Under the pieces are notes generated by a model. The model was not told the origin of the DNA. It made no database searches and worked only from the letters and a program-made list of their open reading frames with translations. From Thraustochytrium sp. TN22 (lineage: Eukaryota > Sar > Bigyra > Thraustochytrida > Thraustochytriidae): a stretch of 64,000 bases of DNA. Numbering within the stretch: position 1 is the first letter of the stretch; the number at the start of each line of letters is the position of its first letter. Shown one piece after another: positions 1,599-53,167 of the stretch. Both the position numbers and the translations under genes were made by a program. The stretch is taken from assembly GCA_013306675.1 (NCBI GenBank), contig JABLUY010000056.1, positions 1 to 64,000 on the forward strand. The letters run 5' to 3'.

Positions 1599-4500
1599 TC
1601 AGCTACTCGCGATGAGGCCATGCGTCCTGAGCTTGCCCAACAGGTCGTTCACCGCGGTGCGCAACTCATTGTTAAAGTCGCGCAGCTTCTCGCACTCGTC
1701 GCGGAGCGCCATCACCTCCGATTGTGAGGGCGTCGTGGAGAAGCTCAGCGATCCAATGGTCCCGTCGCCCGGGTCATGTGTAGCGCCCACGTCCGCCACC
1801 GCCGCTTGCTGCGCGCCGACCACTTGCTGCGCGCCCACCGCCAGACTCGAAACGCCTGAGAGCGCGCCGCCCTGCACGGTCACCGACTCCACCATGACCG
1901 ACCCACTCGTGCTCGTGACTGTCAGTGACGTTGCGCCAGAGTGCGTGATCGTCGCGGCCGCCTTGCTCAGCACCACGTCGCCCGTCATGCTAAGCGAGCT
2001 AACCGCTGACACCGCACCGTTGTTTACGGTCACGCCGTCTACCACCACACCGCCCCCACTGCTTATGCTCAGCTCGGAGGCGTCCGCATGGACGATGCTC
2101 TGTGCTGCCGCATCGGTCAGGAGAACATCGCCGCCCGAGATGGTGAGGTCGCTCGTCATGGCCAGCGTCGACACCGCGGAGACTGCGTCGCCGCTCACCG
2201 TCACACTTTCCACCGCCACGATGCCACTAGAGCTGGCAATCGTCAGCGAGGTCGCGCCCGTGTGAGTGATGGCCGCGGCCGCCTTGCTCATGGTCAGGTC
2301 GCTGGTCATGGCCAGCGTCGAAACACCAGAGGCTGCGCCGTCGCTCAGCGTGACCCCGTCCACCACGACACCGCCGCCGCTGCTGATGGTTAGCGCCGAG
2401 GCGTCTGCGTGCACAATGCTCTGCGCACCGGCCTCCGACAGGAGAATGTCGCCACCTGAGACCGTCAGGTCGCTCGACATGCTCAGCGTGGACACAGCGG
2501 ACACCGCGCCGCCGCTCACGGTCACGCCCTCCACCGCCACAACGCCGCTTGTGCTAGCGATCGTCAGCGAGGTTGCGCCCGAGTGGACGATACTGGCGGC
2601 CGCCTTGCTCAGGGTCAGGTCGCTGGTCATGCCCAGCGTCGAGACGCCCGAGATGGCCGCCGCGTTCATGGTGACGCCCTCCGCGACAAGGTCGCCGCCG
2701 CTGCTCAGCGTCAGCGAGGTCGCGCCGCTGTGCACGATGCTGGCCGCGGCCTTGCTCAGGGACACGTCGCCCGTGAGCGCCAAGGCGCTGACGGCCGACA
2801 TGGCGCCATCCTGCACCGTGACGCCGTCCACCACCACGGATCCGCTGGTGCTGGCAATGGTCAGCGAGGTCGCGCCGGAGTGCGTGATGGCCGCGGCCGC
2901 CTTGCTCATGGTCAGGTCGGCTGTCATGGCCAGCGAGCCGATCCCCGAAACCGCGCTGTCGCTCATCGTGACGCCGTCCACGACAACGCCGCCGCCGCTG
3001 CTGATGGTGAGCGCCGAGGCGTCCGCGTGCACGATGCTCTGTGCTGCCGCATCGGTCAGGAGGACATCGCCGCCCGAGAGGGTGAGGTCGCTCGTCATGG
3101 CCAGCGTCGACACTGCGGAGACTGCACCGCCGCTCACCGTTACGCTTTCAACTGCCACGATGCCGCTTGAGCTGGCGATTGTCAACGAGGTTGCACCCGT
3201 ATGGGTAATGGCCGCGGCCGCCTTGCTCATGGTCAGGTCGCTTGTCATGGCCAGCGTCGAAACACCCGAGATAGCCGCGGCATTCATGGTGACGCCCTCA
3301 GCAACGAGGTCGCCGCCGCTGCTGATGGTCAGCGCCGAGGCGTCTGCGTGCACAATGCTCTGCGCACCGGCCTCCGACAGGAGAATGTCGCCGCCTGAGA
3401 CCGTCAGGTCGCTCGACATGCTCAGCGTGGACACAGCAGACACCGCGCCGCCGCTCACGGTCACACCCTCCACCGCCACAATGCCGCTTGTGCTAGCGAT
3501 CGTCAGCGAGGTTGCGCCCGAGTGGACGATGCTGGCGGCCGCCTTGCTCAGGGTCAGGTCGCTGGTCATGCCCAGCGTCGAGACGCCCGAGATGGCCGCC
3601 GCGTTCATGGTGACGCCCTCCGCGACAAGGTCGCCGCCGCTGCTCAGCGTCAGCGAGGTCGCGCCGCTGTGCACGATGCTGGCCGCGGCCTTGCTCAGGG
3701 ACACGTCGCCCGTGAGCGCCAAGGCGCTGACGGCCGACATGGCGCCATCCTGCACCGTGACGCCGTCCACCACCACGGATCCGCTGGTGCTGGCAATGGT
3801 CAGCGAGGTCGCGCCGGAGTGCGTGATGGCCGCGGCCGCCTTGCTCATGGTCAGGTCGGCTGTCATGGCCAGCGAGCCGATCCCCGAAACCGCGCTGTCG
3901 CTCATCGTGACGCCGTCCACGACAACGCCGCCGCCACTGCTGATGGTGAGCGCCGAGGCGTCCGCGTGCACGATGCTCTGTGCTGCCGCATCGGTCAGGA
4001 GAACATCGCCGCCCGAAAGGGTGAGGTCGCTCGTCATGGCCAGCGTCGACACTGCGGAGACTGCACCGCCGCTCACCGTCACGCTTTCAACTGCCACGAT
4101 GCCGCTTGAGCTGGCGATTGTCAGCGAGGTCGCTCCCGAGTGGGTGATGGCCGCGGCCGCCTTACTCAGGGTCAGGTCGCTGGTCATGGCCAGCGTCGAA
4201 ACACCCGAGATGGCCGCGGCATTCATGGTGACGCCCTCGGCGACGAGGTCGCCGCCGCTGCTCAGTGTGAGCGAGGTCGCGCCGCTGTGCACAATGCTGG
4301 CCGCGGCCTTGCTCAGCGTCACGTCGCCCGTGAGCGCCAAGGCGCTCACCGCCGAGACCGCACCATCGCTCACGGTCACGCCGTCCAACACCACGCCGCC
4401 GCCACTGGAGATGCTCAGCTCGGAGGCGTCCGCGTGAATGATACCCTGCGCTGCCGCATCCGCCAGCAGAATGTCGCCGCCCGAGAGGGTCAGGTCGCTG

Positions 4501-31500: not shown

Positions 31501-34500
31501 GCGCTCGCCCCGGATGCGCCCACGTGGGAGATGGACTGTGAGCCGGACGATTGTAGCCGCAGGTCGCCGTCGGAGAGGATGAAGTCGCCGGCAGAGCTGG
31601 TCAGATCCCCGCTCATGCCAAAGGAGGTCACCGCGGAGATGGCCTGGTCATTCACGGTCACGCCGTCCACCACGACTCCACCGCCGGAGCTGACCTGGAG
31701 CTCGCTGGCGTCCGCGTGCGCGATTTGCTGTGCGCCCGTCTTGGACAGGAGCAGGGCGCCGCCACTGCTGGTCAGGTCGCCGCTCAGGTCGAGCGTGGTG
31801 ACGGCAGACACGGCGTTGCTGTTGATCGTCACGCCGTCAACCGCCACGCCGCCGCCTGAGCTGATGGCCAGCTCGCTGGCGTCCGCATGCGTAATCTGCT
31901 GCGCCCCTGCCTTGCCAAGGACAAGGTTGCCGCCGCTGCTCGTCAAGTCTCCGCTCATGTCAAGCGTGCTCACCGCCGAAACTGCGTTGCTGTTCACACT
32001 GACGCCCTCGAGCACGAGATCCCCGCCCGATGTGATGTCGAGCGAGGTGGCGCCCGTGTGGGAGATCGCCGCGGCTGCGGCCGGCAACGCGATGGACGCC
32101 ACGTTGCTCAACGCGCTCGAGGTCGATGCCGAGACGCCATTCACCACCACATCGCTGCCGGAGCTGATCTGCAGCTCGCTCGCGTCCGCATGGCTGATGG
32201 CCGAGACGCCGGCGTTGGAGAAGCTCAGGTCGCCGCCCGTTGTTATGTCGCTGGTCGTACCCAAGGTGCTGACCGCGGACACGGCGTTGTCGTTGACCGT
32301 CACGCCGTCAAGGATGAGGTCGGCGGCAGACGTGATGCTGAGCGAGGTGGCCCCGGCGTGAGCGATGCTTGCGCTGGCATCAGGCATGGCAATGCTGCTG
32401 ACCGCAGAGATGGCATTCGCGTTGAAGAGTACACCGTCCACGTTGACGTTGCCGCCCGAGGAGATGCTCAAGTCCGCACCAGAAGCGCCAACGTGTGTGA
32501 TTGCCTGCGCGGCACTGGAGCCCAGCTGCACGTCGCCGGCGCCAAGCACCACGTTGCCGGCGCTCGTCGTCAGATCGCCGCTCATGTCCAGCGTAGTGAC
32601 CGCCGACACGGCATTGGCGTTCACACTGACGCCCTCGAGCACCAAGTCCCCGCCCGAGAAAATCTGCAGAGACGCGGCGCCTGTGTGTGAGATCGCCGCG
32701 GTTGCGGCCGGCAACGCGATGGATGCCACGTTGCTCAACGCGCTCGAGGTCGACACCGAGACGCCATTCACCACCACATCGCCGCCGGAGCTGATCTGCA
32801 GCTCGCTCGCGTCCGCATGGCTGATGGCCGAGACGCCGGCGTTGGAGAAGCTCAGGTCGCCGCCCGTTGTTATGTCGCTGGTCGTACCCAAGGTGCTGAC
32901 CGCGGACACGGCGTTGTCGTTGATCGTCACGCCGTCAAGGATGAGGTCGGCGGCAGACGTGATGCTGAGCGAGGTGGCCCCGGCGTGAGCGATGCTTGCG
33001 CTGGCATCAGGCATGGCAATGCTGCTGACTGCAGAGATGGCATTCGCGTTGAAGAGTACACCGTCCACGTTGACGTTGCCGCCCGAGGAGATGGCCAAGT
33101 CCGCACCAGACGCGCCGACGTGCGTGATGGCCTGCGTACTGCTAGACGTGAGCTGGAGACTGCCGGCGCCCAGCACCACATTGCCCGTGCTTGCGGTAAG
33201 ATCGCCGCTCATGTCCAGCGTGGACACGGCGGACACGGCCTGGTCGCTGAGGGTGACGCCGTCCACCACGACACCGCCGCCAGAGTTGATGGTCAGCTCG
33301 CTGGCATCCGCGTGCGCGATCTGCTGCGCGCCAGCTTTGCTGAGCAGCACATCACCGCCACTGTTGGCCAGGTTGCCGCTCATATCCAGCGTGTCGACTG
33401 CAGACATGGCTTGATCATTCAAGGTGATCCCATCCACCACCACGCCGCCACCGGAGCTGATTCGCAGCTCGCTCGCATCGGCGTGCGCAATTTGCTGCGC
33501 GCCAGCTTTGCTTAGAAGCACATCGCCGCCGCTGTTGGCCAAGTCGCCGCTCATATCCAGCGTGGTGACCGCAGACATGGCTTGATCGCTCAAGGTGATC
33601 CCATCCACCACCACGCCGCCGCCGGAGCTGATGCGGAGCTCGCTTGCGTCCGCGTGTGCAATCTGCTGTGCGCCTGCTTTGCTCAGAAGCACATCGCCAC
33701 CGCTGTTGGCCAGGTCGCCGCTCATGTCCAGCGTGGTTACCGCGGACACGGCCTGGTCGTTCAACGTCACGCCGTCCACAACTACGCCGCCGCCGGAGCT
33801 GATTTGCAGCTCGCTCGCGTCGGCGTGTGCAATCTGCTGTGCGCTTGGCTTGCTCAGCACGAGGTCGCCGCCGCTGCTCGTGAGATCGCCACTCATGCTG
33901 AGCGTGCTCACGGCACTCACGGCTTGATCATCAAGCGTAACGCCGTCCACAACGACGCCGCCGCCGGAGGTGATTTGCAGCTCGCTCGCGTCTGCGTGTG
34001 CAATTCCCTGTGCACCTGCTTTGCTCAGCACGAGATTGCCGCTGGTACTGGTGAGGTCCCCGCTCATGGTCAGAGTGGTGACCGCGGACATGGCTTGGTT
34101 GCTCACTGTGACTCCGTCAACAACCACGCCTCCACCGGAGTCGATCTGCAGCTCGCTCGCATCAGCGTGCGCAATCTGCTGCGCGCCGACTTTGCTGAGC
34201 AGGACGTCGCCGCCGCTGTTTGCGAGGTCGCCGCTCATATCCAACGAGCTCACCGCGCTCACGGCCTGATTGTTGAGCGTCACGCCGTCCACAACGACGC
34301 CGCCGCCGGAGAGAATTTGCAGCTCGCTCGTGTCTGCGTGTGCAATCTGCTGTGCACCTGGCTTGCTCAGCACGAGGTCGCCGCCGCTGCTCGTGAGATC
34401 GCCAGTCATGCTGAGCGTGCTCACGGCACTCACGGCTTGGTCATCGAGCGTAACGCCGTCCACAACGACACCGCCGCCGGAGGTGATTTGCAATTCGCTC

Positions 34501-37500
34501 GCGTCTGCGTGGGCTATCTGCTGCGCACCGGCCTTGGTCAGCACGAGGCTGCCCCCGCTGCTCACGAGATCGCCACTCATGCTCAGCGTCGTGACGGCGC
34601 TCACGGCTTGGTCGTCCATCGTCACGCCGTCCACAACAACGCCGCCGCCAGAGCTTATCTGAAGCTCGCTGGCGTCGGCGTGCGCGATCTGCTGCGCACC
34701 TGCTTTACTCAGCAAGACGTTGCCGCCACTGGCCGTGAGGTCGCCGCTCATGTCCAGCGAGCTCACCGCGCTCACCGCCTGGTTGTTGAGTGTTACGCCA
34801 TCGACCACGACGCCGCCGCCCGAAGAGACCTGCAGCTCGCTCGAATCCGCGTGCGTAATTTGCTGCACGCCCACCTTGGACAACACCACATCGCCGCCGC
34901 TGCTGGTCAGGTCACCGCTCAGGTCCAGCGTGGTCATCCCGCTCACGGCCTGGTTGCTCATGGTGACGCCGTCCACCACAACACCGCCTCCAGAGCCGAT
35001 CTGCAGCTCGCTCGCGTCAGCGTGCGAGATTGTTTGCACCCCAGCGCCAGTAAGCACGATGTTGCCGGCGCTGCTGGTCAAGTCGCCGCTCATAGTGAGC
35101 GTGGTCACTCCGGAGACCGCGCCGCCCTCGAAACGCGCGTCCTCGACCTGGACGTAACCGGCAGAAGAGGCTAGCGCGAGCGAGGTGGCTCCGGTATGCA
35201 GGATGCTGGAGGCGCTTGCCGTCAGCTCGAGCGACGAGACCCCGGCGACGTCGCCGCCGTCGAAGACCACACTCTCTACGGCCACCGTGCCCGAGGCGGA
35301 CACAATCTGCAAGCCGGTGGCGCCCTGGTGCGAGAGCGTGGCGGCGCTCTCGGTCATGACGAGGTCGTCTGACATGGTGAGCGTCGTCACGGAGGAGACC
35401 GCGGACCCGACGAACTTGACGTTCTCCACGACCACATTGCCACTCGTGCTGACCAGGTGCATGTCGCCGATGGAGCTGCCCTCGTGGCGGATGCGCTGCG
35501 TGGTGGTGCCCGCGAGCAGGACATCACCGCTGAGCGAGAGGGCGCCTACGCCGCCCACGTCGGCGCCGGAAAAGACTACATCCTCCACCGACACAGTGCC
35601 CGAGGTCGACGCGATGGCCAGCCCCGTCGCGCCCCTGTGCGAGATGCTGGCGGCGTCCTTGTCGAGAAAGAGATCGTCGGACAACGTCGCCGAGGAGACG
35701 CCCGAGATGGCCGCTCCGCTCACGAGAACATCCTCAATCTGCACACCGTCAGTGTCGCTGACCAGGACGAGGCGACCGGCCGAGCCCTGGTGCCGGATGG
35801 TCTGGTCTGTGTTTGCGGCCAGCACGAGCTCGCCGTCGGCGAGCGTGACTCCATTCGGCACCTCCAAGGTCCCGCTGTCAAAGGTCACGCTCTCCACAAG
35901 CACGTTGCCGACCGGCGCGGAGATTTGCAGGCTCGTGCCAGTGTGCCGGATCTCCTGCGAGCCGGCCGTCCTGTCCAACACGAGGTTTCCATCGACCAAC
36001 GTCAGACTCTGCGGCACGACGGCAGCGCCGTTACTCATGGTGACGCCATCCACGACCACGTCGCCGCCGGAGGAGATTTGCAGCTCGCTGGCGTCTGCGT
36101 GCTGGATGGTCTGCACGCCGGCGCCGGAGAGGGCGAGCGCGCCGGGGAGATTGAGGGCGCCGTCGCTGAAGACGGCGCCGTCGACGGTCACCGTGCCGGC
36201 GCTCGCGACCACGGAGAGGTCGCCCTGCGCCGTGATGCTGCCCGTGCTGGAGGCGTCGAGATCGATGCTTTGCACGTTGGACAGGCTCGCGCCCTCCACG
36301 AGGACATCTTCGATGGCTACAACATCAGTGTCCGCGGCCAGGGAGAGTCGGCCGGAGAGTGCCTTGATGTCGTTTGGCGCGACCGAGAGCGTCTCGGCCA
36401 GAATCAGCGTGTCGCCGGAGGCGACGCGCAGCGCGCCGGTAGACAGCAGACCGCCGGCACCGTAAACGGCCACGTAGTCCTGCGGCTGTGAGTCCGCGAC
36501 GAGGTCCTGCGCCGTGAAGGAGAAGTCACCGATGTCGAGATCCGCGGACGCCGTGAGCGAGGCGACGCCGACGATGTCCGCACTGCTCGACACCTCGCGC
36601 CAGGTCGTACCATCAAAGACCAGGAGCACAGAGCCGCCGGGCGGAATGGCCACCTGCCCCGACGTGAAGTCCTCGTCGGCGTTGTGCACGAGCAGCAGCT
36701 GGCCTGTAGTGGCGCCCGCCGTGGCCAGCGTCAGCGCATTGGCCTCTGCGGCGCCGTCGCTGGCGATCGCCACGAAGCTGCTTGTGACTGGGATGGCAAC
36801 CGTCGCGCCGGCGCTGACAGCGGTCTGGCCCAAGACGACCTCGGAGGTGGCAGTGAGCGTGCCGGATGCGGTGAGCGCGGCGCCGCTGCGCGTCTCGATC
36901 GGCAGCTCTGTGATGATGGGGCCGAAGCCGGCGCCAATGCTGCCGGATACAAGCTGGCCGGCGCCAGTAATGTCAGCGAGATTGCCTGTGGAGAGCAGCG
37001 TGCCGGTGGTGACGTGCGTGGGCAGCACAAGAACGGTGTCTTGTGCGCCTGGCGCCGCGTTGATGCGTAGCCGCACCGCGTAGGCATCTGCGCGGTCCGC
37101 TTTGAGGACGAGCGGGTCCGTGCCGGTGATGACGGTATCAAATCGCGTCGCGTCATCGTGTCCCGCGAGGCCGAGAACGACGTTGCCTGGCAAGTAGGTG
37201 GTGCTGTCGGAGTCGCGATTGTTCTCAATGTTGACGTCGCCCTCGGAGATGAGCTGGTCACCCGTGATGCCGAGGCCGCCCTCCACGGTGAGGTTGTGGA
37301 TGAGGCGCAGGTGCATCTGCTCGAAGTTGACCCGGGTCACATTGAGCGCGCCGACGGTGATGTAGTCGATGAAGTGAGGCGGGTCCAGCTCTCGGCTGAC
37401 GATGGTGGCGCCGGTGATGTCGATGGAGTCGACTACCTGGAGCGCGCCTGCCTCGAGCGTGTCGTTGACGCGAGCGGAACGCACGTCGAGGTCGCCGGCG

Positions 37501-39158
37501 CGCACGCCGTTCTCCGTACCGATGTCGATGTCGCCGAAGCTTGCAACGATGCTGCCGGTGCGGAGTTCTCCGCCAACGTCAACGTTACCATCCACAGAGA
37601 GGTCGTGCAGTGCGTGCAGGAGTGGCGTCTCAACCTGGGTGGCTTCGGGCGAGAGTCTCAGGACGGTGCCGTCTCCAATGCGGGCCTGCAGGTCGCTCGC
37701 AGTACGCACGAGCGTGGCGGTGCTGGCGAGGGCGGACGCGTTGTATGCAAGCAACACGGCGGCGCCTTCTGCGGAGGTTTGCGCGGACACGGCCGGCGCG
37801 TCGTCGAGAGTGTCGGCCATGATGAGCAGCGAGGGCGCCGCCAAGGCGCCGCCGACTGCGAGCGGGGACGAGACCGCGAGCGTCTCGTCCTCATCGTCCA
37901 AGACGGCAATGCGGGCCGCCTGCCCGATCGTGAGCGAGCCATCGACATGGGTATCGCCGGCCACGTGCAGGGTGGCGTCTGGCGCGTTGGTGCCGATGCC
38001 AACCCGCTCGTTCGAGCTGCGGTTACCGAGGGCGATCACCGAGGACGTGCCCGCGTCAATCCACACGTCGCGCGAGGCGCGCATCTCCAGGCCGGCATCC
38101 GAGGACCGAATCACGCCAGTCATCCGGAAGCTGTCGTCCACCATGTGCTCGCCAAACTCGATGCCGGTGTGCTTGGATGCGTCGCTGCCCCTTTCCTGCA
38201 AGCGCCTTTGCGGACCGTGTCGTATTGACTCGCCCGCAGTAGTGCCAGGCCCCAGGCCTCGGTACGAGAACGCGGGCGACGAGTCCGAGCCGCCGCTCTC
38301 CCCTCGATCCTGCTCCAGGACCCGGCGCTGACGCATACGGCGCGCGTCTTCAGGGGACTGTTTGGTGGACAAGCGGATGGTGCTGGACATGGTGTCGGCG
38401 TCCCGGGCCGACACCTCGAGCTCCACGTCCGGGTGTAAGGTGTGTATGCCCATGCTGCCGTCTGGCAGGACGACGGTCTCCTCCTGAATGAGCAGGCTGG
38501 ATACGTCGAACTCGATGCCGTAGTACTGGCGCAACAAGGCCGAGACGACCCAGAGCACGAAGAGGAGACCGGCACACAGTACCATGACCAACACAGCCAT
38601 GCGCAGCGCCTGCTTGCGGTAGCGATACGGGTTGTAAGAGAGATCGCGTGCGGTCAGAAGTCGCTGCGCCTCGCGCTCTGGCAGGATGCGCGGCGCGAGG
38701 CGCCCAAGCAGGCGAGTGGCGCCCGTCGCCTCTCGCGGACGGCCTGGGTCTTTGATGGCGGCATCTCCTCCTGCGTCGCTTCCCGCATCGCTTCCTTCGA
38801 GGTCAGCTCCCGCTTCGTGCAGCGCCTCCCGGAGCAGGTTTTCGGTGCCAATGCCCTCGCCTTGGCCTGTGTCGCCCTGAGAGCGTGAGAACGCCTCTGC
38901 GGCCTTGACGGCAATGTTTTCGGCGCCATCTCCGTTGTCATTGTTCGCGGCAGCGCCGTCACTGTTGCTGTTCGCGGTGGCGCTCTCGCCGCCCTCCTCG
39001 CTGGGCGGCGGCTCGACGTGGACGCGGTTCTGCCTGCCGCGCTTCCTGCCCGTCTTCTTGGGCTTTTTGTCTGCGCCGGCGTCTGCGGCTGCAGCGCCTT
39101 CGGCCTGGTCCCCTGGCGGCGGCTTGCGCCTGTCAGCCCACTGCATGTACTCCTCCAT
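1599..39158 (-). CDS. Giant repetitive type II membrane protein (predicted beta-solenoid adhesin-like)
   Basis: One uninterrupted frame of about 12,519 codons. I start at the ATG at 39158 (MEEYMQWADRR); the frame stays open upstream to 39326 but has no earlier ATG. Layout: acidic/basic cytosolic tail 1-185 with a KKPKKTGRKRGR stretch; one membrane helix about 187-209 (MAVLVMVLCAGLLFVLWVV); dibasic sites RMRQRR and GPQRR just outside; a stalk with the tail-fibre-type motif ERVGIGTNAPDATLHVAG; a non-repetitive beta-rich region to about residue 950; then more than 200 imperfect repeats; finally a coiled coil around ECEKLRDFNNELRTAVNDLL before the stop. Typical repeat pieces are SGDLTSSGGDLVLSKAGAQ, IAHADASELQISSGGGVVV and DGVTLNDQAVSAVTTLDM. 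The repeats are poor in aromatics, charge and proline, and I saw no cysteine in them. Alternating hydrophobic residues and SGG turns suggest a beta-solenoid. I recognise no catalytic domain and no S74 self-cleavage domain. Probable role: surface adhesion or a long spacer. The topology is predicted and the function is inferred. Confidence 0.85.
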   Translation of the reverse strand: MEEYMQWADRRKPPPGDQAEGAAAADAGADKKPKKTGRKRGRQNRVHVEPPPSEEGGESATANSNSDGAAANNDNGDGAENIAVKAAEAFSRSQGDTGQGEGIGTENLLREALHEAGADLEGSDAGSDAGGDAAIKDPGRPREATGATRLLGRLAPRILPEREAQRLLTARDLSYNPYRYRKQALRMAVLVMVLCAGLLFVLWVVSALLRQYYGIEFDVSSLLIQEETVVLPDGSMGIHTLHPDVELEVSARDADTMSSTIRLSTKQSPEDARRMRQRRVLEQDRGESGGSDSSPAFSYRGLGPGTTAGESIRHGPQRRLQERGSDASKHTGIEFGEHMVDDSFRMTGVIRSSDAGLEMRASRDVWIDAGTSSVIALGNRSSNERVGIGTNAPDATLHVAGDTHVDGSLTIGQAARIAVLDDEDETLAVSSPLAVGGALAAPSLLIMADTLDDAPAVSAQTSAEGAAVLLAYNASALASTATLVRTASDLQARIGDGTVLRLSPEATQVETPLLHALHDLSVDGNVDVGGELRTGSIVASFGDIDIGTENGVRAGDLDVRSARVNDTLEAGALQVVDSIDITGATIVSRELDPPHFIDYITVGALNVTRVNFEQMHLRLIHNLTVEGGLGITGDQLISEGDVNIENNRDSDSTTYLPGNVVLGLAGHDDATRFDTVITGTDPLVLKADRADAYAVRLRINAAPGAQDTVLVLPTHVTTGTLLSTGNLADITGAGQLVSGSIGAGFGPIITELPIETRSGAALTASGTLTATSEVVLGQTAVSAGATVAIPVTSSFVAIASDGAAEANALTLATAGATTGQLLLVHNADEDFTSGQVAIPPGGSVLLVFDGTTWREVSSSADIVGVASLTASADLDIGDFSFTAQDLVADSQPQDYVAVYGAGGLLSTGALRVASGDTLILAETLSVAPNDIKALSGRLSLAADTDVVAIEDVLVEGASLSNVQSIDLDASSTGSITAQGDLSVVASAGTVTVDGAVFSDGALNLPGALALSGAGVQTIQHADASELQISSGGDVVVDGVTMSNGAAVVPQSLTLVDGNLVLDRTAGSQEIRHTGTSLQISAPVGNVLVESVTFDSGTLEVPNGVTLADGELVLAANTDQTIRHQGSAGRLVLVSDTDGVQIEDVLVSGAAISGVSSATLSDDLFLDKDAASISHRGATGLAIASTSGTVSVEDVVFSGADVGGVGALSLSGDVLLAGTTTQRIRHEGSSIGDMHLVSTSGNVVVENVKFVGSAVSSVTTLTMSDDLVMTESAATLSHQGATGLQIVSASGTVAVESVVFDGGDVAGVSSLELTASASSILHTGATSLALASSAGYVQVEDARFEGGAVSGVTTLTMSGDLTSSAGNIVLTGAGVQTISHADASELQIGSGGGVVVDGVTMSNQAVSGMTTLDLSGDLTSSGGDVVLSKVGVQQITHADSSELQVSSGGGVVVDGVTLNNQAVSAVSSLDMSGDLTASGGNVLLSKAGAQQIAHADASELQISSGGGVVVDGVTMDDQAVSAVTTLSMSGDLVSSGGSLVLTKAGAQQIAHADASELQITSGGGVVVDGVTLDDQAVSAVSTLSMTGDLTSSGGDLVLSKPGAQQIAHADTSELQILSGGGVVVDGVTLNNQAVSAVSSLDMSGDLANSGGDVLLSKVGAQQIAHADASELQIDSGGGVVVDGVTVSNQAMSAVTTLTMSGDLTSTSGNLVLSKAGAQGIAHADASELQITSGGGVVVDGVTLDDQAVSAVSTLSMSGDLTSSGGDLVLSKPSAQQIAHADASELQISSGGGVVVDGVTLNDQAVSAVTTLDMSGDLANSGGDVLLSKAGAQQIAHADASELRISSGGGVVVDGITLSDQAMSAVTTLDMSGDLANSGGDVLLSKAGAQQIAHADASELRISSGGGVVVDGITLNDQAMSAVDTLDMSGNLANSGGDVLLSKAGAQQIAHADASELTINSGGGVVVDGVTLSDQAVSAVSTLDMSGDLTASTGNVVLGAGSLQLTSSSTQAITHVGASGADLAISSGGNVNVDGVLFNANAISAVSSIAMPDASASIAHAGATSLSITSAADLILDGVTINDNAVSAVSTLGTTSDITTGGDLSFSNAGVSAISHADASELQISSGGDVVVNGVSVSTSSALSNVASIALPAATAAISHTGAASLQIFSGGDLVLEGVSVNANAVSAVTTLDMSGDLTTSAGNVVLGAGDVQLGSSAAQAITHVGASGADLSISSGGNVNVDGVLFNANAISAVSSIAMPDASASIAHAGATSLSITSAADLILDGVTVNDNAVSAVSTLGTTSDITTGGDLSFSNAGVSAISHADASELQISSGSDVVVNGVSASTSSALSNVASIALPAAAAAISHTGATSLDITSGGDLVLEGVSVNSNAVSAVSTLDMSGDLTSSGGNLVLGKAGAQQITHADASELAISSGGGVAVDGVTINSNAVSAVTTLDLSGDLTSSGGALLLSKTGAQQIAHADASELQVSSGGGVVVDGVTVNDQAISAVTSFGMSGDLTSSAGDFILSDGDLRLQSSGSQSISHVGASGASADLLISSGGNVDVEGVLFNTNAIAAVDSIAMAAASASITHSGATALSISSGADLILDGVTVNNNAVSAVSTLDTTSDVTAGGDLSFSNAGISSISHADASELQISSGGDVVVNGVSVSTSGALSSVASIALPGAAAMISHAGATSLSMTSGGDLILEGVSVNTNAVSAVSTLDMSGDLTSSSGNLVLAKAGAQQIAHADTSELQISSGGDVVVNGVSVSTGGAISAVTSVTMPAAAAFIAHTGATSLSISSGGDLVLEGVSVNNNAVTAVTTLDMSGDLTSSGGDLVLNKVGTQQIAHSDTSELLISSGGGVIVDGVTVSDQALSAITTLGMSSDLTNSGGNVVLSKAGAQQIAHADASELSISSGGGVVVDGVTLNNQAVSAVSSLDMSGDLTTSGGDVVLSAGSVQLSSAGAQTLAHVGAAGADLGISSGGNVNVEGVLFNANAVSAVSSIAMPDASASITHAGATSLSITSSADLILDGVTVNDNAVSAISTLDTTGAITTGGDLSFANAGVSAIGHADVSELQISSGGDVVVNSVSVSTAGALSAVASVAMPAASATIAHTGATSLAISSGGDLVLEGVSVNSNAVSAVATLDMSGDLTNSGGGIMLSKAGAQSIAHADASELHISSGGDVVVNGVSVSTAGALSAVTSVTMPAAAASITHTGATSLDVSSGGDLVLEGVSVNSNAVSAVTTLDMSGDLTTSTGNVVLSAGDLQLASGGAQAIAHVGAAGADLSVSSGGNVNVEGVLFNTNAISAVGSIAMPDASASITHAGATSLSITSSADLVLDGVTVNDNAVSAISTLDTTGAITTGGDLSFANTGVSAIDHPDASELQISSGGDVVVNGVSVSTSSALSNVASIALPGASASISHTGATSLAITSGGDLVLDGVSVNTNAISAVATLDMSGDLTNSAGNVILSKAGAQAIAHADASELQISSGGGVVVDGVSIDSQAVSAVTTISMSGDLTNSAGNLVFSKVGAQQIAHADASELRVSSGGGVVVDGVTVNDQAVSGMTTLGMSGDLTTTAGDVLLSTGSVQLGSSAAQAITHVGAMGADLGISSGGNVNVHGVLFNTNAISAVESITMPANSASISHTGTTSLSVASSASLILDGVTVNDNAVSAVSTLDTTGAITTGGDLTFANAGASAIGHAHASDLQISSGGDVVVNGVSVSTAGALSAVTSVTMPAAAASITHTGAASLDVSSGGDLVLEGVSVNSNAVSAVTTLDMSGDLTTSTGNVVLSAGDLQLASGGAQAIAHVGAAGADLSVSSGGNVNVGGVLFNTNAISAVGSIAMPDASASITHAGATSLSITSSADLVLDGVTVNDNAVSAISTLDTTGAITTGGDLSFANTGVSAIGHADASELQISSGGDVVVNGVSVSTSSALSNVASIALPGASASISHTGATSLAITSGGDLVLEGVSMNANAISAVTTLTMSGDLTTATGDMVLTSGDVRFSATGSQAISHAGSASGDLVISSGGNVDIEGVIFETNAISAVGSIAMPDASASITHAGTTSLSITSSADLILDGVTVNNNAVSAVTALSMSGDMTNSAGSLLLTKAGAQSIVHADVSELQISSGGDVVVNGVSVSTAGALSAVTSVTMPTGAASIAHTGAASLDISSGGDLVLDGVSVNNNAVSAVTTLDMSGDVTNSGGDLVLSRPGPQQIAHADGSELQISSGGGVVLDGVTVSDQALTSITTLEMSGDLTTTSGNVVLSVGSIQLDSSAAQSIAHVGAAGADLSVSSGGNVNVEGVLFNTNAISALDSVTMPSASASITHTGTTALSISSAGDIVLDGVTVNNNAVSAISTLDTTGAITTGGDLTFSNAGASAIHHADVSELQISSGGDVVVNGVSVSTAGALSAVTSITLPSASASIAHAGATALSISSAGDLVLDGITVNNNAVSAVSTLGTTGAITTGGDLSFVNAGASAISHADASELQISSGGEVVVNSVSVSTSGSLSNVASIALPAASASIAHTGATSLAISSGGDLVLEGVSVNTNAVSAVATLDMSGDLTNSGGNLILSKAGAQSIAHADASELAINSGGGVIVDGVTFNDQALSSVTTLSMSGDLTSSGGNLVLGKAGAQQITHADASELSISSGGGVVVDGVTLSDQAVSAVTSLGMSGDLTNSAGDFVLAKTGAQQIAHADASELQISSGGGVVVDGVTVSNQALSAITTLDMSGDLATTSGDVLLSSGSLQLGSSASQSIAHVGGVGADLYVSSGGNVNVDGVLFNTNAISAVSNIAMPDASASISHGGATVLDISSAGDLVLDGVTVNNNAVSAISTLGTTGAITTGGDLAFSAAGMSSISHADVSELQISSGGDVVVNSVSVSTAGALSAVASVTLPAASATISHTGATSLVISSGGDLVLEGVSVNSNAISAVTTLDMSGDLTNSGGDIVLGGAGPRAIAHADASELQISSGGDVVLNGVSVSTAGALSAVASMSLPTASASIAHTGASSLAISSGGDLVLEGVSVNSNAITAVTTLDMSGDLTNGGGNLVLGKAGAQQIVHADASELVISSGGAVVVDGVTVSDQALSAVSTLSMSGDFTSSGGDLVLSKAGAQSIVHADASELQMSSGGGVVVDGVTLNNAAVSAVTTLDMSGDLTTSTGDVTVGTGDLLLGSGTAQAIGHVGGAGADLSVSSGGNVNVEGVLFNTNAISAVSSIAMPDASASISHGGASALSISSASDLVLDGVTVNNNAVSAVSTLSTTDAITAGGSLAFSAAGASSISHPDVSELQISSGGDVVVNSVSVSTSGALSNVASIALPAASAAITHGGAGSLTITSGGDLVLEGVSINSNAVSAVTTLSMSGDLTNADGDLVLSKAGVQQITHIDASELRVSSGGGVVVDGVTIDAQAVSAVTTLDLSGDLTSSGGDVVLSKVGVQQIVHADASELHVSSGGGVVIDGVTVDSQAMSAVTTLSMSGDLTSTGGNLILGKASAQQILHADASELQISSGGGVTVDGVTIDSQAVSAVTTLGMSGDFTTSSGNVILAAGSVQLGATTAQAIAHVGGAGADLSISSGGNVNVEGVIFNTNAISAVSSIAFPDASASITHAGATSLSISSAGDVVLDGITVNNNAVSAVSTLATTGDITTGGNLALSDAGASTISHADASELSIASGGDVLVNGVTFSSAGAVSAVSSIALPDAVAAFSHTGTTALTIDSGGDVVMEGVTINSNAVSAISTLGTTGDITAGGNLAFSNAGLSTISHADASELQISSGGDVVVNGVSVSTSGALSAVASVTLPTSSATILHAGATSLTISSGGDLVLEGISVNTNAVSAVTTLGMSGDLTNSGGSVVLSKAGPQQIAHADASELQLISGGGVVVDGVTLSDSAVSAVTSLSMSGDLANSAGNLVLGKAGAQSIAHADASELQISSGGGVVVDGVTLGNQAISAVTTLGMSGDLTNSAGDLVLSKAGAQQITHADATELQVSSGGGVVVDGVTMSDSAVSAITTLDMSGDLTTSTGDVTLAAGNLLLGSSVGRSITHVGGAGADLSLSSGGNVNVEGVLFNTNAISAVGSIAMPDASASITHAGASALSISSGGDLVLEGVSINNNAVSAVSTLSTTGAITVGSNLAFSAAGASSIGHADASELAISSGGDVVVNGVSISTTGALSAVASIALPAATASIAHAGATSLSISSAGDLVLEGVSINNNAVSAVSTLSTSGAITTGGSLAFSASGASSISHADASELAISSGGEVVVNGVSVSTSGALSNVASVTFPAAAASIAHAGATSLSITSGGDLVLEGVSVNANAISAVSTLDMSGDLTTGAGDVVLSVGDLRLDSSSAQNLAHVGAAGADLSISSGGNVNVEGVRFETNAISAVSSVAMPDASASITHAGATALSISSAGDLVLDGITVNNNAMSAVSTLSTTGAITAGGDLAFSNNGASTIAHADASELQISSGGDVVVNAVSVSTSGALSNVASIALPAAAASITHTGATSLTLESSSDLVLEGVTFNNNAMSAVTELTTTGDLTTGGNLAFSKAGDSSITHSDASTLTISSGGDVVVNGVSVSTSGALSAVASVALPAAAATITHTGATSLAISSSGNLVLEGISVNNNAVSGITTLSMSGDLTTSTGNLAMSTGNLQLGSTGAQTIAHTGAAGADLSIASGGNVNVQGVLFSTNAISSVDSIGLAAAAATIAHTGASSLSIMSSAHLVLEGVTVTSGAVSAVTTLSMASDLTNSGGNLVLSRAGAQQIAHADTSELQISSGGGVVVDGVTLNDNAVSAIATLDMSGDFTNSGGDLVLSRAGAQQITHADASELSISSGGGVVVDGVTLSGQSIAAVTTLDMNGDLTNSGGDLVLSKAGAQQITHADASELQISSGGGVVVDGVTLSNSAMSAVTTIAMSGDLTTSTGDVVLSTGDLQLDSSAAQSISHVGAAGADLRISSGGNVNVEGVLFSTNAISAVSSITMPDASASITHAGATALSISSAGDLVLEGVSINNNAVSAISTLSTTGAITAGGNLAFSSTGATSISHADASELAISSGGDVVVNGVSVSPAGALSAVASLALPTAAATITHAGATSLSISSGGDLVLEGVSVNTNAVSAVSTLDMSGDLTTSTGDVILSAGSLQLSSSSAQSVAHVGGVGADLSISSGGNINIEGVLFNANAISAVSTITMPDASVSITHTGATALGISSAGDLVLEGVSINNNAVSAISTLGTTGAITAGGDLAFSATGASSINHADASELAISSGGDVVVNGVSVSPAGALSAVASLALTTAAATITHAGATSLSISSGGDLVLEGVSVNANAVSAVSTLDMSGDFTNSGGDVVLGKAGAQQIMHADASELSISSGGGVVVNGVTLSGQSIAAVTTLDMSGDLTNSGGDLVLSKAGAQQIAHADASELQISSGGGIVVDGVTLSDSAMSAITTIAMSGDLTTSTGDVVLSTGDLQLDSSAAQSISHVGAARADMSISSGGNVNVEGVLFNTNAISAVSSLAMPDASASITHAGATALSISSAGDLVLEGVSINNNAVSAISTLSTTGAITAGGNLAFSSTGATSISHADASELAISSGGAVVVNGVSVSTSGMLSDVASISLPNAAASIAHTGATSLSISSGGNLVLEGVSVNANAVSAVTALGMSGDLTNSGGDLVFSRVGAQQIAHADASELQISSGGGVTVDGMTIDSQAVSAVTTLGMSGDLTNSGGNLVLSKAGAQSIAHADSSELGISSGGGVVVDGVTLSNNAVSAVSTLSMSGDLANSGGDIVLSKSGAQQIAHADASELQISSGGGVVVDGVTLSDSAMSAITTLDLSGDLTTSTGDVVLSAGDLQLGSSTAQSIAHVGATGSDLSISSGGNVNVEGVLFHTNAVSAVSSISMPDASVSITHTGATALSISSAGDLVLEGVSINNNAVSAISTLSTTGAITAGGNLAFSAAGASSISHADASELAISSGGNVVVNGVSVSTSGMLSNVASIALPAATASITHAGATSLSITSGGDLVLEGISVNTNAVSAVSTLSMSGDLANSGGDVVLSKSGAQQIAHADASELQISSGGGVVVDGVTLSDSAMSAITTLDLSGDLTTSTGDVVLSAGNLQLGSSSAQSIAHVGATGSDLSISSGGNVNVEGVLFHTNAVSAVSSISMPDASVSITHTGATALSISSAGNLVLEGVSINNNAVSAISTLSTTDDITVGGDLALSAAGASSISHTDASELAISSGGDVVVNSVSISTTGALSAVASLAFPAATASIVHAGATSLSITSGGDLVLEGVSVNANAVSAVTTLSMSGDLTTSGGDLVLSKAGAQQIAHADASELQISSGGGVVVDGVTLSDSAMSAITTIAMSGDLTTSTGDVVLSTGDLQLGSSAAQSISHVGAAGADLSISSGGNVNIEGVLFNTNAISAISSLAMPDASASITHAGATALSISSAGDLVLEGVSINNNAVSAISTLSTTGAISAGGDLAFSAAGVSSISHADASELAISSGGDVVVNSVSISTTGALSAVASIAFPAPTASITHAGATSLSISSGGDLVLEGVSVNANAVSSITALSMSGDLTNSGGDLVMSGVGAQQIAHADASELQISSGGGVTVDGVTIDSQAVSAVTTLGMSGDLTNSAGNLVLSKAGAQSIAHADPSELEISSGGGVVVDGVTLSNNAVSAISTLSMSGDLTSSTGDLVLTAGDVQLGSTAAQAITHAGASGADLSISSGGNVNVDGVLFNSNTISAVSSVGMSAAAATIVHSGATSLTVSSPGDLVLEGVSVNTNAISAVTTLGMSGDLTNSGGDLVMSGVGAQQIAHADASELQISSGGGVTVDGVTIDSQAVSAVTTLGMSGDLTNSAGNLVLSKAGAQSIAHADPSELEISSGGGVVVDGVTLSNNAVSAISTLSMSGDLTSSTGDLVLTAGDVQLGSTATQAITHVGASGADLSISSGGNVNVDGVLFNSNTISAVSSVGMSAATATITHSGATSLTVSSAGDLVLEGVSMNTNAISAVTTLGMSGDLTNSAGGLVFGRAGAQSITHADASELQISSGGAVVVNGISVSTSGALSAVASIALPAATASIAHAGATSLSITSGGDVVLEGVSVNANAVSAITTLEMSGDLTNSAGDVVLAAGDLRLTSTGAQAIAHSGTGDLGISSGGNVVVDGVSFNTNAISSVASIGMAVATASITHTGTTSLTLSSGGNLIAEGVTMNGGAVSGVTTFATSSDISSSAGDLTLSAGDIVLNANARQSIAHTGGTGADLVISSGGNVVLESITVAGSALSAVGSLQMSGDMTNSAGNLVLSSASAQTISHAGSSELRITSGGGAVVDGVTIDDGAVSSVSTLAMTSDLTLSKAAASIVHSGGTSLTISSGGNLVAEGVTINGGAVAGVSTLAMSDDLTLSKTSAALAHTGAGALTISSAGTAVVVDGVTVSNGALSSVTTLGMTDDLTLTKSAATISHTGVTSLTISSGGNLIAEGVTINSGAVSGVSSLAASGLLSSAAGNLALGAGNVLLQSALAQSIQHTGAAGADLSIMSGGNVVLEAITMANGAVSAVTSLQMSADLTNSGGNLVLSKSGAQSITHADSSALTISSGGGVVVDGITMNDGVVTGASSLGMTGDLSLSAAAASIVHTGATSLTISSGGNLVAEGVTINGGAVSAVTTLAMTDDLTLSKASAAIAHTGASTLAISSSGAAVVVDGVSISDGAVSAVSTLAMTGDLTLSKAAASIVHSGGTSLTISSGGNLVAEGVTINGGAVAGVSTLAMSDDLTLSKASAALAHTGAGALTISSAGTAVVVDGVTVSNGALSSVTTLGMTDDLTLTKSAATISHTGVTSLTISSGGNLIAEGVTINSGAVSGVSSLAASGLLSSTAGNLALGAGNVLLQSALAQSIQHTGAAGADLSITSGGNVVLEAITMANGAVSAVTSLQMSADLTNSGGNLVLSKSGAQSITHADSSALTISSGGGVVVDGVTMNDGVVTGASSLGMTGDLSLSAAAASILHSGATSLTISSGGNLVAEGVTINGGAVSAVTTLAMTDDLTLSKASAAIAHTGAGALTLSSGGNLVAEGVTMNAGAVSGVSSLAMADDLTLTKAAASVVHTGASSLTFTSTSGAVVVEGVSINSGAITGANSLSMSESLTLTQAMASITHSGTTSLTISSGGSLIAEGVTVNSGAVSGIASLSVSGNVVNSGGDLVLSKSGPQSITHADSSTLTISSGSGVVVDGVTMNDGAITGTSSLGVTGDLTLSAATASILHSGATSLTISSGGNLIAEGVTVNAGTVAGVSTLAMTDDLTLSKASAAVAHTGAGALTISSSGTAVVVDGVSISNGAVSAVSTLAMTEDLTLTKAAASIVHAGATSLTISSGGNLVAEGVTINNGAISGSASLTATGDVRSSGGDVVLSAGDLTLTASASQLISHTGGAGADLVISSGGNVLVDAVTFANGAVSAVSTLSLSGDLTSSGGNLVLSSTSAQSITHAASSELRVSSGGGVVVDGVTVNDGAVSAVTSLGLSDDLTMTKAAASIVHSGATSLTLTSTSGAVVVEGVSINSGAVSGATTISMSDSLTLTQAAASITHSGATSLTISSGGNLIAEGMTVNAGAVAGVSTLALTGDLTNAGGNLVLSKSGAQSITHADASALAISSGGGVVVDGVTVSDGAVSAVSSLGMTGDLGLSAAAASIVHSGTTSLTISSGGNLVAEGVTLNGGAVAGVSTLTMTDDLTLSKASAAIMHTGAGALTLSSGGNLVAEGVTMNGGAVSGVSSLGLTGDITLTKAAASIVHSGATSLSLASTSGAVIVDGVSINSGAVSGATTISMSDSLTLTQAAASITHSGATSLTISSGGNLIAEGVTVNAGAVAGVSTLALTGDLTNAGGNLVLSKSGAQSITHADASALAISSGGGVVVDSVTVSDGAVSAVSTLAMTSDLTLSAAAASILHSGATSLSLSSTSGSVIVEGVSVNAGAMTGATTLALSEGLSLTPAAATITHTGTTSLTISSGGNLVAEGVTMNAGVVSGISSLSVTGDMVNTGGDLVLSRSGAQSITHADASTLTISSGGGLLLDGVTVQDNAVSGVSSLAMTADVTLSKAAASIAHSGATSLTLSSGGDLVAEGVTMNSGAVSGVSSMSMTSDLAMSKAAAAIVHSGATSLSISSTSGVVVVEGVTMSAGAVSDISTLSMSSHLTISGGDILLGDTGAQSITHADASALTISSGGAVVVDGITVQDGAVSAVSALALTGDVSLSKAAASIVHSGTTSLTLSSGGDLVAEGVTLNAAAISGVSTLGMTSDLTMSKAAAGISHTGATSLTISSASGLVAVESVTVSGGAISAVSTLGMSSDLSLSGGDILLSDTGAQSIVHADPSALTISSGGGVIVDGVTLSDGAASGLTTLAMTSDLTMSKAAAAITHSGASSLTIASTSGVVVVEGITASAGALSAVSTLAMSSDLTVSGGDILLTEAGAQSIVHADVSALTISSGGGVVVDGITFSEGAASGLTTLAMTSDLTMSKAAASITHSGATSLTIASTSGVVVVEGVTTSAGAMSAVATLAMSSDLTLSGGDILLADAAAQGIIHADASELSISSGGGVVLDGVTVSDGAVSAVSALALTGDVTLSKAAASIVHSGATSLTLSSGGDLVAEGVTMNAAAISGVSTLAMTSDLTLSKAAAAITHSGATSLTIASSSGIVAVESVTVSGGAVSAVSTLAMTSDLTLSGGDVLLTDAAAQSIVHADASALTISSGGGVVVDGVTMSDSAVSGIGSLAMTADLTMSKAAAAITHSGATSLTIASTSGSVVVDGVTVQDGAMSAVSALALTGDVSLSKAAASIVHSGATSLTLSSGGDLVAEGVTMNAAAISGVSTLGMTSDLTLSKAAASIVHSGATSLTIASTSGIVAVEGVTVSGGAVSAVSTLSMSSDLTVSGGDILLSEAGAQSIVHADASALTISSGGDLVAEGVTMNAAAISGVSTLAMTSDLTMSKAAAAITHTGATSLTIASSSGIVAVESVTVSGGAVSAVSTLAMTSDLTLSGGDVLLTDAAAQSIVHADASALTISSGGGVVVDGVTMSDSAVSGIGSLAMTADLTMSKAAAAITHSGATSLTIASTSGSVVVDGVTVQDGAMSAVSALALTGDVSLSKAAASIVHSGATSLTLSSGGDLVAEGVTMNAAAISGVSTLGMTSDLTLSKAAASIVHSGATSLTIASTSGVVAVEGVTVSGGAVSAVSTLSMSSDLTVSGGDILLSEAGAQSIVHADASALTISSGGGVVVDGVTLSDGAASGVSTLAMTSDLTMSKAAAAITHTGATSLTIASSSGIVAVESVTVSGDAVSAVSTLAMTSDLTISGGDVLLTDAAAQSIVHADASELSISSGGGVVVDGVTVNNGAVSAVSSLSMTGDVVLSKAAATITHSGATSLTVTSTSGSVMVESVTVQGGALSGVSSLAVGAQQVVGAQQAAVADVGATHDPGDGTIGSLSFSTTPSQSEVMALRDECEKLRDFNNELRTAVNDLLGKLRTHGLIASS
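2392..4134. repeat. Near-identical 939-base tandem segmental duplication
   Basis: Sequence from about 2392 recurs almost unchanged from about 3331, an offset of 939 bases = 313 codons. That equals two 57-residue, three 50-residue and one 49-residue unit. The copies differ at only scattered bases, so the event is recent relative to the ordinary divergence between repeats. Confidence 0.85.
8985..11100. repeat. Near-identical 1110-base tandem segmental duplication
   Basis: Sequence from about 8985 to 9990 recurs from about 10095 to 11100, an offset of 1110 bases = 370 codons. One anchor is the block at 9181 (gtcatgccgagcgagctcgc), which is found again at 10291. The reading frame is preserved. 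Confidence 0.85.
12172..13440. repeat. Near-identical 669-base tandem segmental duplication
   Basis: The block starting at 12172 recurs at 12841, an offset of 669 bases = 223 codons, which equals 43 + 66 + 57 + 57 residues. Only a few differences are visible between the copies. Confidence 0.85.
27230..29520. repeat. Segmental duplication in the giant gene with 1596-base offset
   Basis: Sequence around 27240-27920 recurs around 28836-29516, with one anchor at 27285 and 28881. The offset of 1596 bases = 532 codons. The copies are close to identical and are separated by other repeat units. Confidence 0.75.
32081..33060. repeat. Near-identical duplication of the 627-base higher-order block
   Basis: The block from about 32081 recurs from 32708, an offset of 627 bases = 209 codons. 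This is exactly one 66-43-57-43 higher-order unit, so it is direct evidence that the whole block can duplicate as a unit. Confidence 0.8.
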
Positions 39159-52597: not shown

Positions 52598-53167
52598 TCA
52601 TCAGAAGAACGAAAGCACGTTGCATGGACGAGCACAGCTCACGCCGCAGCGCAGATTATGAATCATCACGTGCGGCACAAGCTGTAGGCCTAGAACAAAC
52701 GGCACAGACCGAGCGAAGATTGCAATCCATGGACCCGATGAAGGTGTCTATCTGTCGAGTCGAGTCGAGCGAGCGGGCCTGCGCGCCGCTGCCGTGCTCC
52801 GGGTCCTCCTCCGAGCCCTTGGTGGTGCTCGCCCTTGCTTCGCTTCAAGTTCGCGCCGTCGTTGGACTCATGGCACAGACCGAGCGAAGATTGCAGTCCA
52901 TGGACCCGATGAAGGTTTCTCTCTGTCGAGTCGAGTTGAGCGAGCGGGCCTGCGCGCCGCTGCCGTGCTCCTGGTCCTCCTCCGAGCCCTTGGTGGTGCT
53001 CGCCCTTGCTTCGCTTCAAGTTCGCGCCGTCGTTGGACTCGAAGCTGCCGCGGCGGCGCCCGCGTCCAAAGCCCGAACGGCGGCTACGACGCGGACGGCG
53101 GCGGCGGCGGCGGCGGCGGGGGCGGCGGCGGCGGCGGCGGCGGCAGGCGGGCGGGCGGGCGGGCAGG
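52598..53167. other. Leader region of Tho1/SARNP gene
   Basis: 570 bases between the otubain stop and the SAP-protein ATG. Its core is a 171-base tandem duplication. The last ~75 bases are (GGC)n-rich DNA running up to the ATG. An open frame crosses the duplication because 171 is divisible by three, but its product is low-complexity and unlike any family I know. Confidence 0.6.
52701..53042. repeat. 171-base tandem duplication, two copies
   Basis: Copy 1 is 52701-52871 and copy 2 is 52872-53042. The offset is exactly 171 bases at both ends tested: ggcacagaccgagcgaagat at 52701 and 52872, and gttggactc at 52861 and 53032. Few differences are visible, so the event is recent. It lies in the probable promoter/leader of the Tho1/SARNP homologue. 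Confidence 0.9.

Follow-up and report, generated by a model that had tools for sequence, protein, structure and literature searches.

The described systems closest to the locus analysed here are the mosaic adhesive trimer (MAT) fibres of Bdellovibrio bacteriovorus, which are trimeric beta-prisms of S74 and non-S74 kinds that include Bd2133 (PMC10769870). According to the passages cited, these fibres are displayed on the cell surface, are approximately 1,000-1,150 residues long and carry a variable tip at the C-terminus. Their capping-loop motif also retrieves MYRF; it is printed in that paper without its third residue, which is present in the copies among our PDB hits (PMC10769870). MYRF is itself a eukaryotic, membrane-bound protein with an ICA domain, an upstream beta-helical fibre-type stalk and a C-terminal coiled coil responsible for trimerisation, and acts as a transcription factor released by self-cleavage (PMC8326128). 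Phage tail fibres and the triple-stranded beta-helix of T4 gp5, with its continuous VxGxxxxx octads, are long, thin, repetitive beta fibres (PMC4576200). Proteins in the size class of the one described below are found in marine Synechococcus, such as SwmB (10,791 aa) and four repetitive giants of strain NB0720_010 with cadherin-like or RTX-type repeats (PMC9387257). Stramenopile mastigoneme proteins, as presented in the cited passages, have a signal peptide and EGF-like domains and no membrane segment (PMC12223298, PMC3879662).

The window analysed here (a 64,000-nucleotide stretch of Thraustochytrium sp. TN22 DNA) lies on contig C405 (159,823 bases), one of 453 contigs in a genome assembly of 37.9 Mb. 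Translation of its minus strand from the ATG at 39158 to the TGA at 1599 gives 12,519 residues with zero internal stops (Table 1), in agreement with the continuous frame of about 12,500 residues reported in an earlier note on this DNA, and the window sequence contains no N. The start codon has a Kozak-like context (GCCACCGCCATGG) and no further in-frame ATG is found upstream of it before a stop. The five other frames of window positions 1599-39158 contain 652, 208, 92, 67 and 838 stops; approximately 304 per frame of that size are expected from base composition alone, a figure that serves as a scale and not as a P value because the repeats are not independent. Based on these counts, chance openness of a GC-rich frame was rejected. 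Long antisense frames mean little at this locus: one of 1,205 residues, antisense to the repeats (16156-19773, plus strand), probably results from codon use in the GC-rich repeat.

The surroundings are eukaryotic, as the earlier note had read them. Of the 20 neighbouring frames tested, eight have Pfam matches that lie within the single frame (EDR2/PH, Golgi pH regulator, MFS, NUDIX, proteasome alpha, EF-hand/C2, MORN and SAP), all of them eukaryotic in kind or compatible with a eukaryote. The other 12 have no Pfam match, and several overlap other frames and need not be genes. That the giant frame is intronless had been considered remarkable; it is indeed unbroken, but this may be less striking than was thought, as the domains of these eight neighbours also lie inside single frames (if these are taken to be whole genes), though the genome appears to splice, judging from the apparent upstream exon of a paralogue on contig C32. 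The C2 and EF-hand frame (60166-62784, plus strand) overlaps, in its N-terminal part, a Gly-Pro-Pro-Met-type tandem repeat at 60.4-61.2 kb. A 171-base unit is present in two copies with a 97% match at 52701-53040, and its period apparently equals that of the 57-residue repeats by coincidence. A 16-base universal 18S pattern had no match in the 37.9 Mb assembly, from which the rRNA genes may be missing.

Table 1. Features of the giant gene and its predicted product
Feature	Window position	Strand	Basis
Single-frame coding sequence, 12,519 residues and TGA	1599..39158	-	Translation; start context; stop counts
Residues 1-188, acidic, low-complexity N-terminus, taken as cytosolic	38595..39158	-	Sequence; no sequon here
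Residues 189-209, membrane segment VLVMVLCAGLLFVLWVVSALL, contains Cys195	38532..38594	-	Kyte-Doolittle
Residues 210-972, non-repeat N-terminal ectodomain (~760 residues)	36243..38531	-	No family above cut-off
Residues 386-399, VGIGTNAPDATLHV, loop like a trimeric-fibre capping loop	37962..38003	-	Marginal statistics
Residues 379-622, stretch with all five N-x-S/T sequons	37287..38024	-	Sequon count
Residues 973-9191, shaft zone 1, mainly 57/64/45/56/44-residue units in fixed order	11586..36242	-	Unit HMM
Residues 9192-12443, shaft zone 2, mainly 49, 50 and 57-59, some 64-residue units	1830..11585	-	Unit HMM
Residues 12479-12512, predicted C-terminal helix, heptad-like, with Cys12489	1623..1724	-	AlphaFold pLDDT 90-97

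The membrane segment is the 21-mer with the highest Kyte-Doolittle value in the protein (mean 2.88), the next highest outside this region being 1.73, at residue 427. Because basic residues directly precede the segment, the N-terminus is taken to be cytosolic, corresponding to a type II topology. The only two cysteines among the 12,519 residues are those in the membrane segment and in the predicted C-terminal helix, such that the shaft has none. Within the ectodomain, no family exceeds its cut-off; Phage_depo_C reaches 21 bits at residues 790-854, where 25 are required. The protein ends in LRTHGLIASS, and this tail is common to the C32 paralogue. Judged from its sequence, the gene product is well supported as a giant membrane-anchored fibre. 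The surface location that had been proposed for it draws indirect support from the single strong membrane segment and from the avoidance of sequons in the shaft (discussed below).

An HMM built from the repeat units gave 219 matches, of which 216 score above 3 bits and are contiguous from residue ~973 to ~12,443 at spacings of 43-64 residues, the first and last being partial units. The earlier estimate of more than 200 repeats is thus correct. The unit of approximately 57 residues given with it is the most frequent (51 of 215 spacings) but not the sole length: spacings of 49 (30), 44 (29), 64 (28), 45 (23), 56 (23), 58 (10) and 50 (10) are also found, and the remaining 11 take other values between 43 and 59. 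These units follow one another in a strict order. A 56-residue unit is followed by a 44-residue unit in 23 of 23 cases, a 64-residue unit is followed by a 45-residue unit in 22 of 28 cases (the other six by 47, 43 or 59), and a 44-residue unit never precedes another of 44 or one of 45 residues. The 209-residue series 64-45-56-44 is present 18 times. The mix of units shifts at approximately residue 9,192 (Table 1). Near-identical units are mostly 209-532 residues apart; distances of 912 and 1,444 are seen for a few pairs among the 25 closest. Such recurrence suggests that blocks of units were duplicated within the gene as the array expanded. The unit consensus has one VxG per unit. A spectral peak at 8.2 residues in the repeats may be a mere harmonic of the 57-residue unit and was given no weight.

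Replacement changes between repeat units are clearly disfavoured, indicating that the units are under purifying selection. Among a total of 3,100 pairs of equal-length units, dN/dS (ratio of means) in seven pS bins was 0.30, 0.22, 0.24, 0.36, 0.37, 0.27 and 0.18; no ratio could be obtained for the lowest bin (4 pairs, pS 0, mean pN 0.002) or for the top one (60 pairs), which is saturated, and as the units compared are paralogues within one gene, the values are blurred by gene conversion, shared ancestry and saturation. This is the comparison of synonymous and nonsynonymous changes that, had it shown no selection, would have refuted the proposal of the earlier note. Its outcome, selection on the protein sequence at ratios of 0.18-0.37 (~0.2-0.4 where computable), favours the view that selection keeps the frame open.

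The protein is also poor in N-glycosylation sequons. The whole protein contains five N-x-S/T sequons, all before the shaft, where 126 are expected from composition. The shaft units have none, compared to 19.4 +/- 2.9 in 1,000 column shuffles made within unit length classes (minimum 10), and when the shaft is dereplicated to 132 units the comparison is 0 with 11.6 (300 shuffles, minimum 5). The possibility that this loss is a by-product of subfamily structure was rejected: shuffling only inside subfamilies gave means of 11.4 and 6.7 (300 shuffles each, minimum 4 and 2) and never 0. A loss comparable to that of the sequons is seen in no control pattern out of 11, and nine of them lie within approximately two standard deviations of expectation, some slightly below and some above. 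N-x-A (83 against 70.3) and N-x-[AG] (151 against 139.6) are in excess, which we take to be a mirror effect because it is expected if N-x-S/T is avoided. The avoidance is conditional, N being tolerated when S/T is absent. Positions 46-48 of the 56-residue units read DLS, NLA, DLA, DLT or SLA and never combine N with S/T; in the two cases in which a 57-residue unit has N for the D of DLT, the T is replaced by A or V. The simplest cause would be selection against N-glycans on a shaft passing through the ER. The avoidance is an argument for synthesis of the protein, for its transit through the ER and for a shaft maintained without N-glycans.

Related proteins allow this pattern to be compared. 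The seven readable 57-residue units of the C32 paralogue contain no sequon, and its one sequon (residue 300) precedes the repeats. The avoidance is not general: in a second giant protein, encoded on contig C193 and built from different repeats, depletion is not clear, with 3, 3, 3 and 0 sequons in four fragments (the second and third of which overlap) against 5.7, 3.4, 3.6 and 3.0 from composition. The eight neighbouring frames have 8 sequons in all where 10.7 are expected.

The fold of the shaft was approached from the loop in the ectodomain and from structure prediction. A search of the PDB with residues 371-425 (E-value up to 10) returned five sequences: Bd2133 (8ond; E-value: 0.0091), 8ojn (E-value: 0.016), two unrelated enzymes (E-values: 0.64 and 0.77) and MYRF (E-value: 1.5). 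Based on the depositor name, we take 8ojn to be from the same study as the Bd2133 MAT structures. These are whole-sequence values; for the best single stretches, the E-values are 8.8 (8ond) and 0.53 (8ojn). Because of these values, and because the N-terminal 900 residues matched nothing in the PDB at E-values up to 1, the likeness to a fibre loop is a lead and not proof. Compared to PHROG, the loop matches tail-fibre families at E-values of 0.011 and 0.027, ranked below two families of unknown function. A regular expression for the loop, written after the motif had been seen, has one hit in the giant protein, where 0.0003 are expected per shuffled segment; the loop occurs only this once, at residues 386-399, and is absent from the shaft units. 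The loop sequence points weakly to homotrimeric fibres.

An AlphaFold model of four 57-residue units (101 rows) has a pLDDT of 81.4, a pTM of 0.48 and almost no DSSP strands, and because the five models disagree (ranging from 81 to 53) it is treated here as a hint. It would fit an extended chain awaiting partner chains, but may also be a poor model. For the C-terminal 330 residues, the helix is confidently predicted (Table 1) and the shaft is modelled at a pLDDT of approximately 46 with short intrachain strands.

The earlier note had predicted a beta-solenoid. In this arrangement the protein would be a monomeric adhesin 0.2-0.3 micrometre in length, each unit forming several coils of one single-chain helix. 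It would account for the beta-rich repeats, with their SxLxISSGGxVxVxGV strand-turn look, for unit lengths that step by approximately 7-8 residues (49, 57, 64) and for the short strands in the low-confidence C-terminal model, and one of four stretches, the best, matches Pfam Beta_helix (PF13229) with an E-value of 4.5e-5. This match is nonetheless below the curated cut-off (23.6 versus 25.9 bits), and the gene is not one of the four genome-wide matches to the family. Modelling of four tandem units, which had been suggested as a check, produced no solenoid. A Foldseek search found no match in the PDB, which holds many beta-solenoids, and an oligomer is suggested both by the loop and by the coiled coil at the C-terminus. 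The solenoid is therefore not supported as originally put forward, and we regard it as rather doubtful.

Searches for relatives beyond this genome gave weak matches only in the libraries searched, and the repeat family is as unrecognised as it was to the earlier note. Family libraries were queried with four stretches comprising 3,899 of the 12,519 residues. Matches to NCBIfam PRK07340.1 (E-value: 9.2e-7; 28.4 bits against a cut-off of 266), PHROG 24358 (E-value: 1.1e-5; unknown function), PHROG 25284 and others were set aside as repeat-composition noise, no stretch passing alone. The C-terminal 999 residues have no tip domain in Pfam; a match to Receptor_2B4 (21.4 bits against 21) falls on the repeats and looks spurious. 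The repeats matched nothing among PDB profiles below an E-value of 0.5. In phages, tblastn found no match to four shaft units (228 aa, E-value up to 1e-5), to the C-terminal 116 residues (E-value up to 1) or to residues 207-1,017 (E-value up to 0.01). Scans with short peptide patterns, which reach close relatives only, produced 8 stretches (viral contigs, four units), 18 (viral contigs, tail) and 98 (prokaryotic genome contigs, four units), none of which was confirmed. No similar protein was found among the matches listed in a literature search of titles and abstract starts, which does not imply absence from print.

Relatives are found in the same genome. The C32 paralogue (C32 32032-43950, minus strand) is a frame of 3,973 residues that includes a 7,624-base N gap inside its repeat array. 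It encodes EGF domains above cut-off (PF23106, PF07974 and PF00008), and its seven readable 57-residue units have a mean identity of 0.63 to those of the window protein and 0.86 among themselves. Its tail is 57% identical to that of the window protein over 115 residues (E-value: 8.4e-34). The C-terminal 116 residues have 29 matches in the genome, but the tail itself is found only at the window gene and C32, the other 27 being shaft units of the window gene. An apparent upstream exon of the paralogue, encoding a signal-peptide-like segment and an EGF module, ends at GTAAGTG, with the frame resuming after CACACAG.

Other genes in this genome encode S74 domains. The C193 frame (1-38491, minus strand; 12,830 residues counted) reaches the contig end, where the last 4 kb contain 2,501 N, and approximately 19 kb of its 45 kb were covered. 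Its protein has a signal-peptide-like start, PSI-like cysteines (PSI match below cut-off, 21.5 versus 23.1 bits), GGxVxLxxG repeats and two S74 fibre-chaperone domains. Both domains are located in the middle of the protein, which is unusual for a chaperone of the C-terminal kind. An S74 search of the whole genome gave five hits, on C193 (two), C256, C444 and C310, and none in the window gene on C405. The S74 genes on C256, C444 and C310 are smaller. That on C256 has a layout resembling a phage fibre tip, in which a cap-type loop (LGVGTRWPSVRLDV) directly precedes the S74 domain. On C310, a signal-like start is followed by S74 and then by a long coiled coil. Related large proteins on C219 and C162, in frames of more than 2,000 residues, have GGAI/FxxNxA-type repeats that resemble the beta-helices of polymorphic outer membrane proteins.

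The layout of the C32 EGF paralogue is like that of stramenopile mastigoneme proteins (PMC12223298, PMC3879662). An alternative is that the window protein is a flagellar hair (mastigoneme) or cell-coat element that would co-assemble with this paralogue through their common repeats and tail. The EGF domains, the same 57-residue units, the similar tail and the apparent signal-peptide-like exon of C32 are all consistent with such a role. The window protein itself departs from the mastigoneme layout in having a membrane segment, and an EGF domain is impossible in it because it has only two cysteines; furthermore, the mastigoneme protein with a size recorded in the cited passages is 64 kDa (PMC12223298, PMC3879662). 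We consider this alternative unlikely.

A fibre of the trimeric type finds its closest parallels in the MAT proteins and MYRF. Likenesses to the MAT fibres are the VGI[GN]xxxPxxxL-type loop (matched for the loop only, and marginally), the surface display with a distal C-terminal end that is proposed for the window protein, and the presence in one genome of S74 and non-S74 members, as with the S74 genes and the window gene here (PMC10769870). In contrast, MAT fibres are bacterial and less than a tenth as long (PMC10769870), the loop recurs in Bd2133, and the shaft repeats of the window protein found no sequence match among the PDB profiles. Because its C-terminus has neither an S74 domain (genome search) nor a known non-S74 MAT tip (Pfam, C-terminal 999 residues), the window protein is not a MAT or S74 protein by membership, although it may work like such a fibre. 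MYRF is similar in being eukaryotic and membrane-bound with a fibre-type stalk, a C-terminal coiled coil and a weak loop match (E-value: 1.5), but no S74 domain was found in the window gene and MYRF is a self-cleaving transcription factor (PMC8326128). The phage tail fibres resemble the window protein in concept and through the weak PHROG matches of the loop; unlike T4 gp5, its consensus has no continuous octads (PMC4576200), and no phage relative was found by tblastn. The Synechococcus giants are alike in size class, and the four of strain NB0720_010 are likewise repetitive, but they are bacterial and the repeats of those four are of other types (PMC9387257).

The length of such a fibre can be estimated from the MAT structures, in which residues 662-1,031 of Bd2133 span 142 angstrom and residues 818-1,151 of Bd1334 span 95 angstrom (PMC10769870). 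The computed rise is 0.38 and 0.28 angstrom per residue, respectively. At a MAT-like rise, the 11,471 shaft residues would extend approximately 440 and 330 nm (0.33-0.44 micrometre), making the several hundred nanometres suggested in the earlier note plausible. A single-chain solenoid rises 4.8 angstrom per coil of 20-25 residues, and a shaft of that kind would be approximately 220-275 nm long.

Taken together, we propose that the product is a giant fibre anchored in the membrane and probably trimeric, with a beta-structured shaft 0.33-0.44 micrometre long, registration by a C-terminal coiled coil and a distal adhesive or binding end; we put the chances of this complete reading at about even. 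The N-terminus would lie in the cytosol, with one helix passing through the membrane and approximately 12,300 residues directed outward. The C-terminal coiled coil would probably bring three chains into register, and these would then zip up into a single long shaft, as in phage tail fibres, the MAT fibres of Bdellovibrio and the stalk of MYRF. Free of cysteine and N-glycans, this shaft would form a rod or ribbon, and the distal C-terminal end, common to the EGF-domain paralogue, could serve as a trimerisation or docking tip. A single chain of 12,500 residues is estimated at roughly a megadalton. While we infer the trimer, the topology and the length, the adhesive role is a guess: the likeliest use would be to position an end for adhesion or partner binding well away from the cell, for prey or substrate contact, in the cell coat or as a flagellar hair. 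A bolder version, which we offer tentatively and think somewhat improbable, is that a eukaryote builds homotrimeric hairs of the phage-tail-fibre type from single 12,500-residue chains, that selection erases every sequon from a shaft of 11,500 residues, and that membrane-anchored and secreted EGF paralogues with a common shaft and tail may co-assemble.

That the locus is not one functional protein at all, but an assembly-inflated or spliced repeat locus, is very improbable: near-identical units mostly 209-532 residues apart can mislead assemblers, and two related loci carry long N gaps, but the 37.6 kb contain no N and no frame break, the diverged units have fewer replacement than silent changes, the unit types keep a strict order and sequon avoidance is specific. 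Even if the assembler had added or dropped some units, the reading as a membrane-anchored fibre would stand.

If this trimeric fibre is correct, phage-type trimeric fibres would be neither an exclusively bacterial and viral device nor, in eukaryotes, confined to a small part of MYRF; a eukaryote would have scaled them up to an intronless 37.6-kb gene. The gene is a natural test of how cells make, fold and secrete a 12,500-residue chain, and the avoidance of sequons provides a sequence-only test for ER passage of giant repeat proteins.
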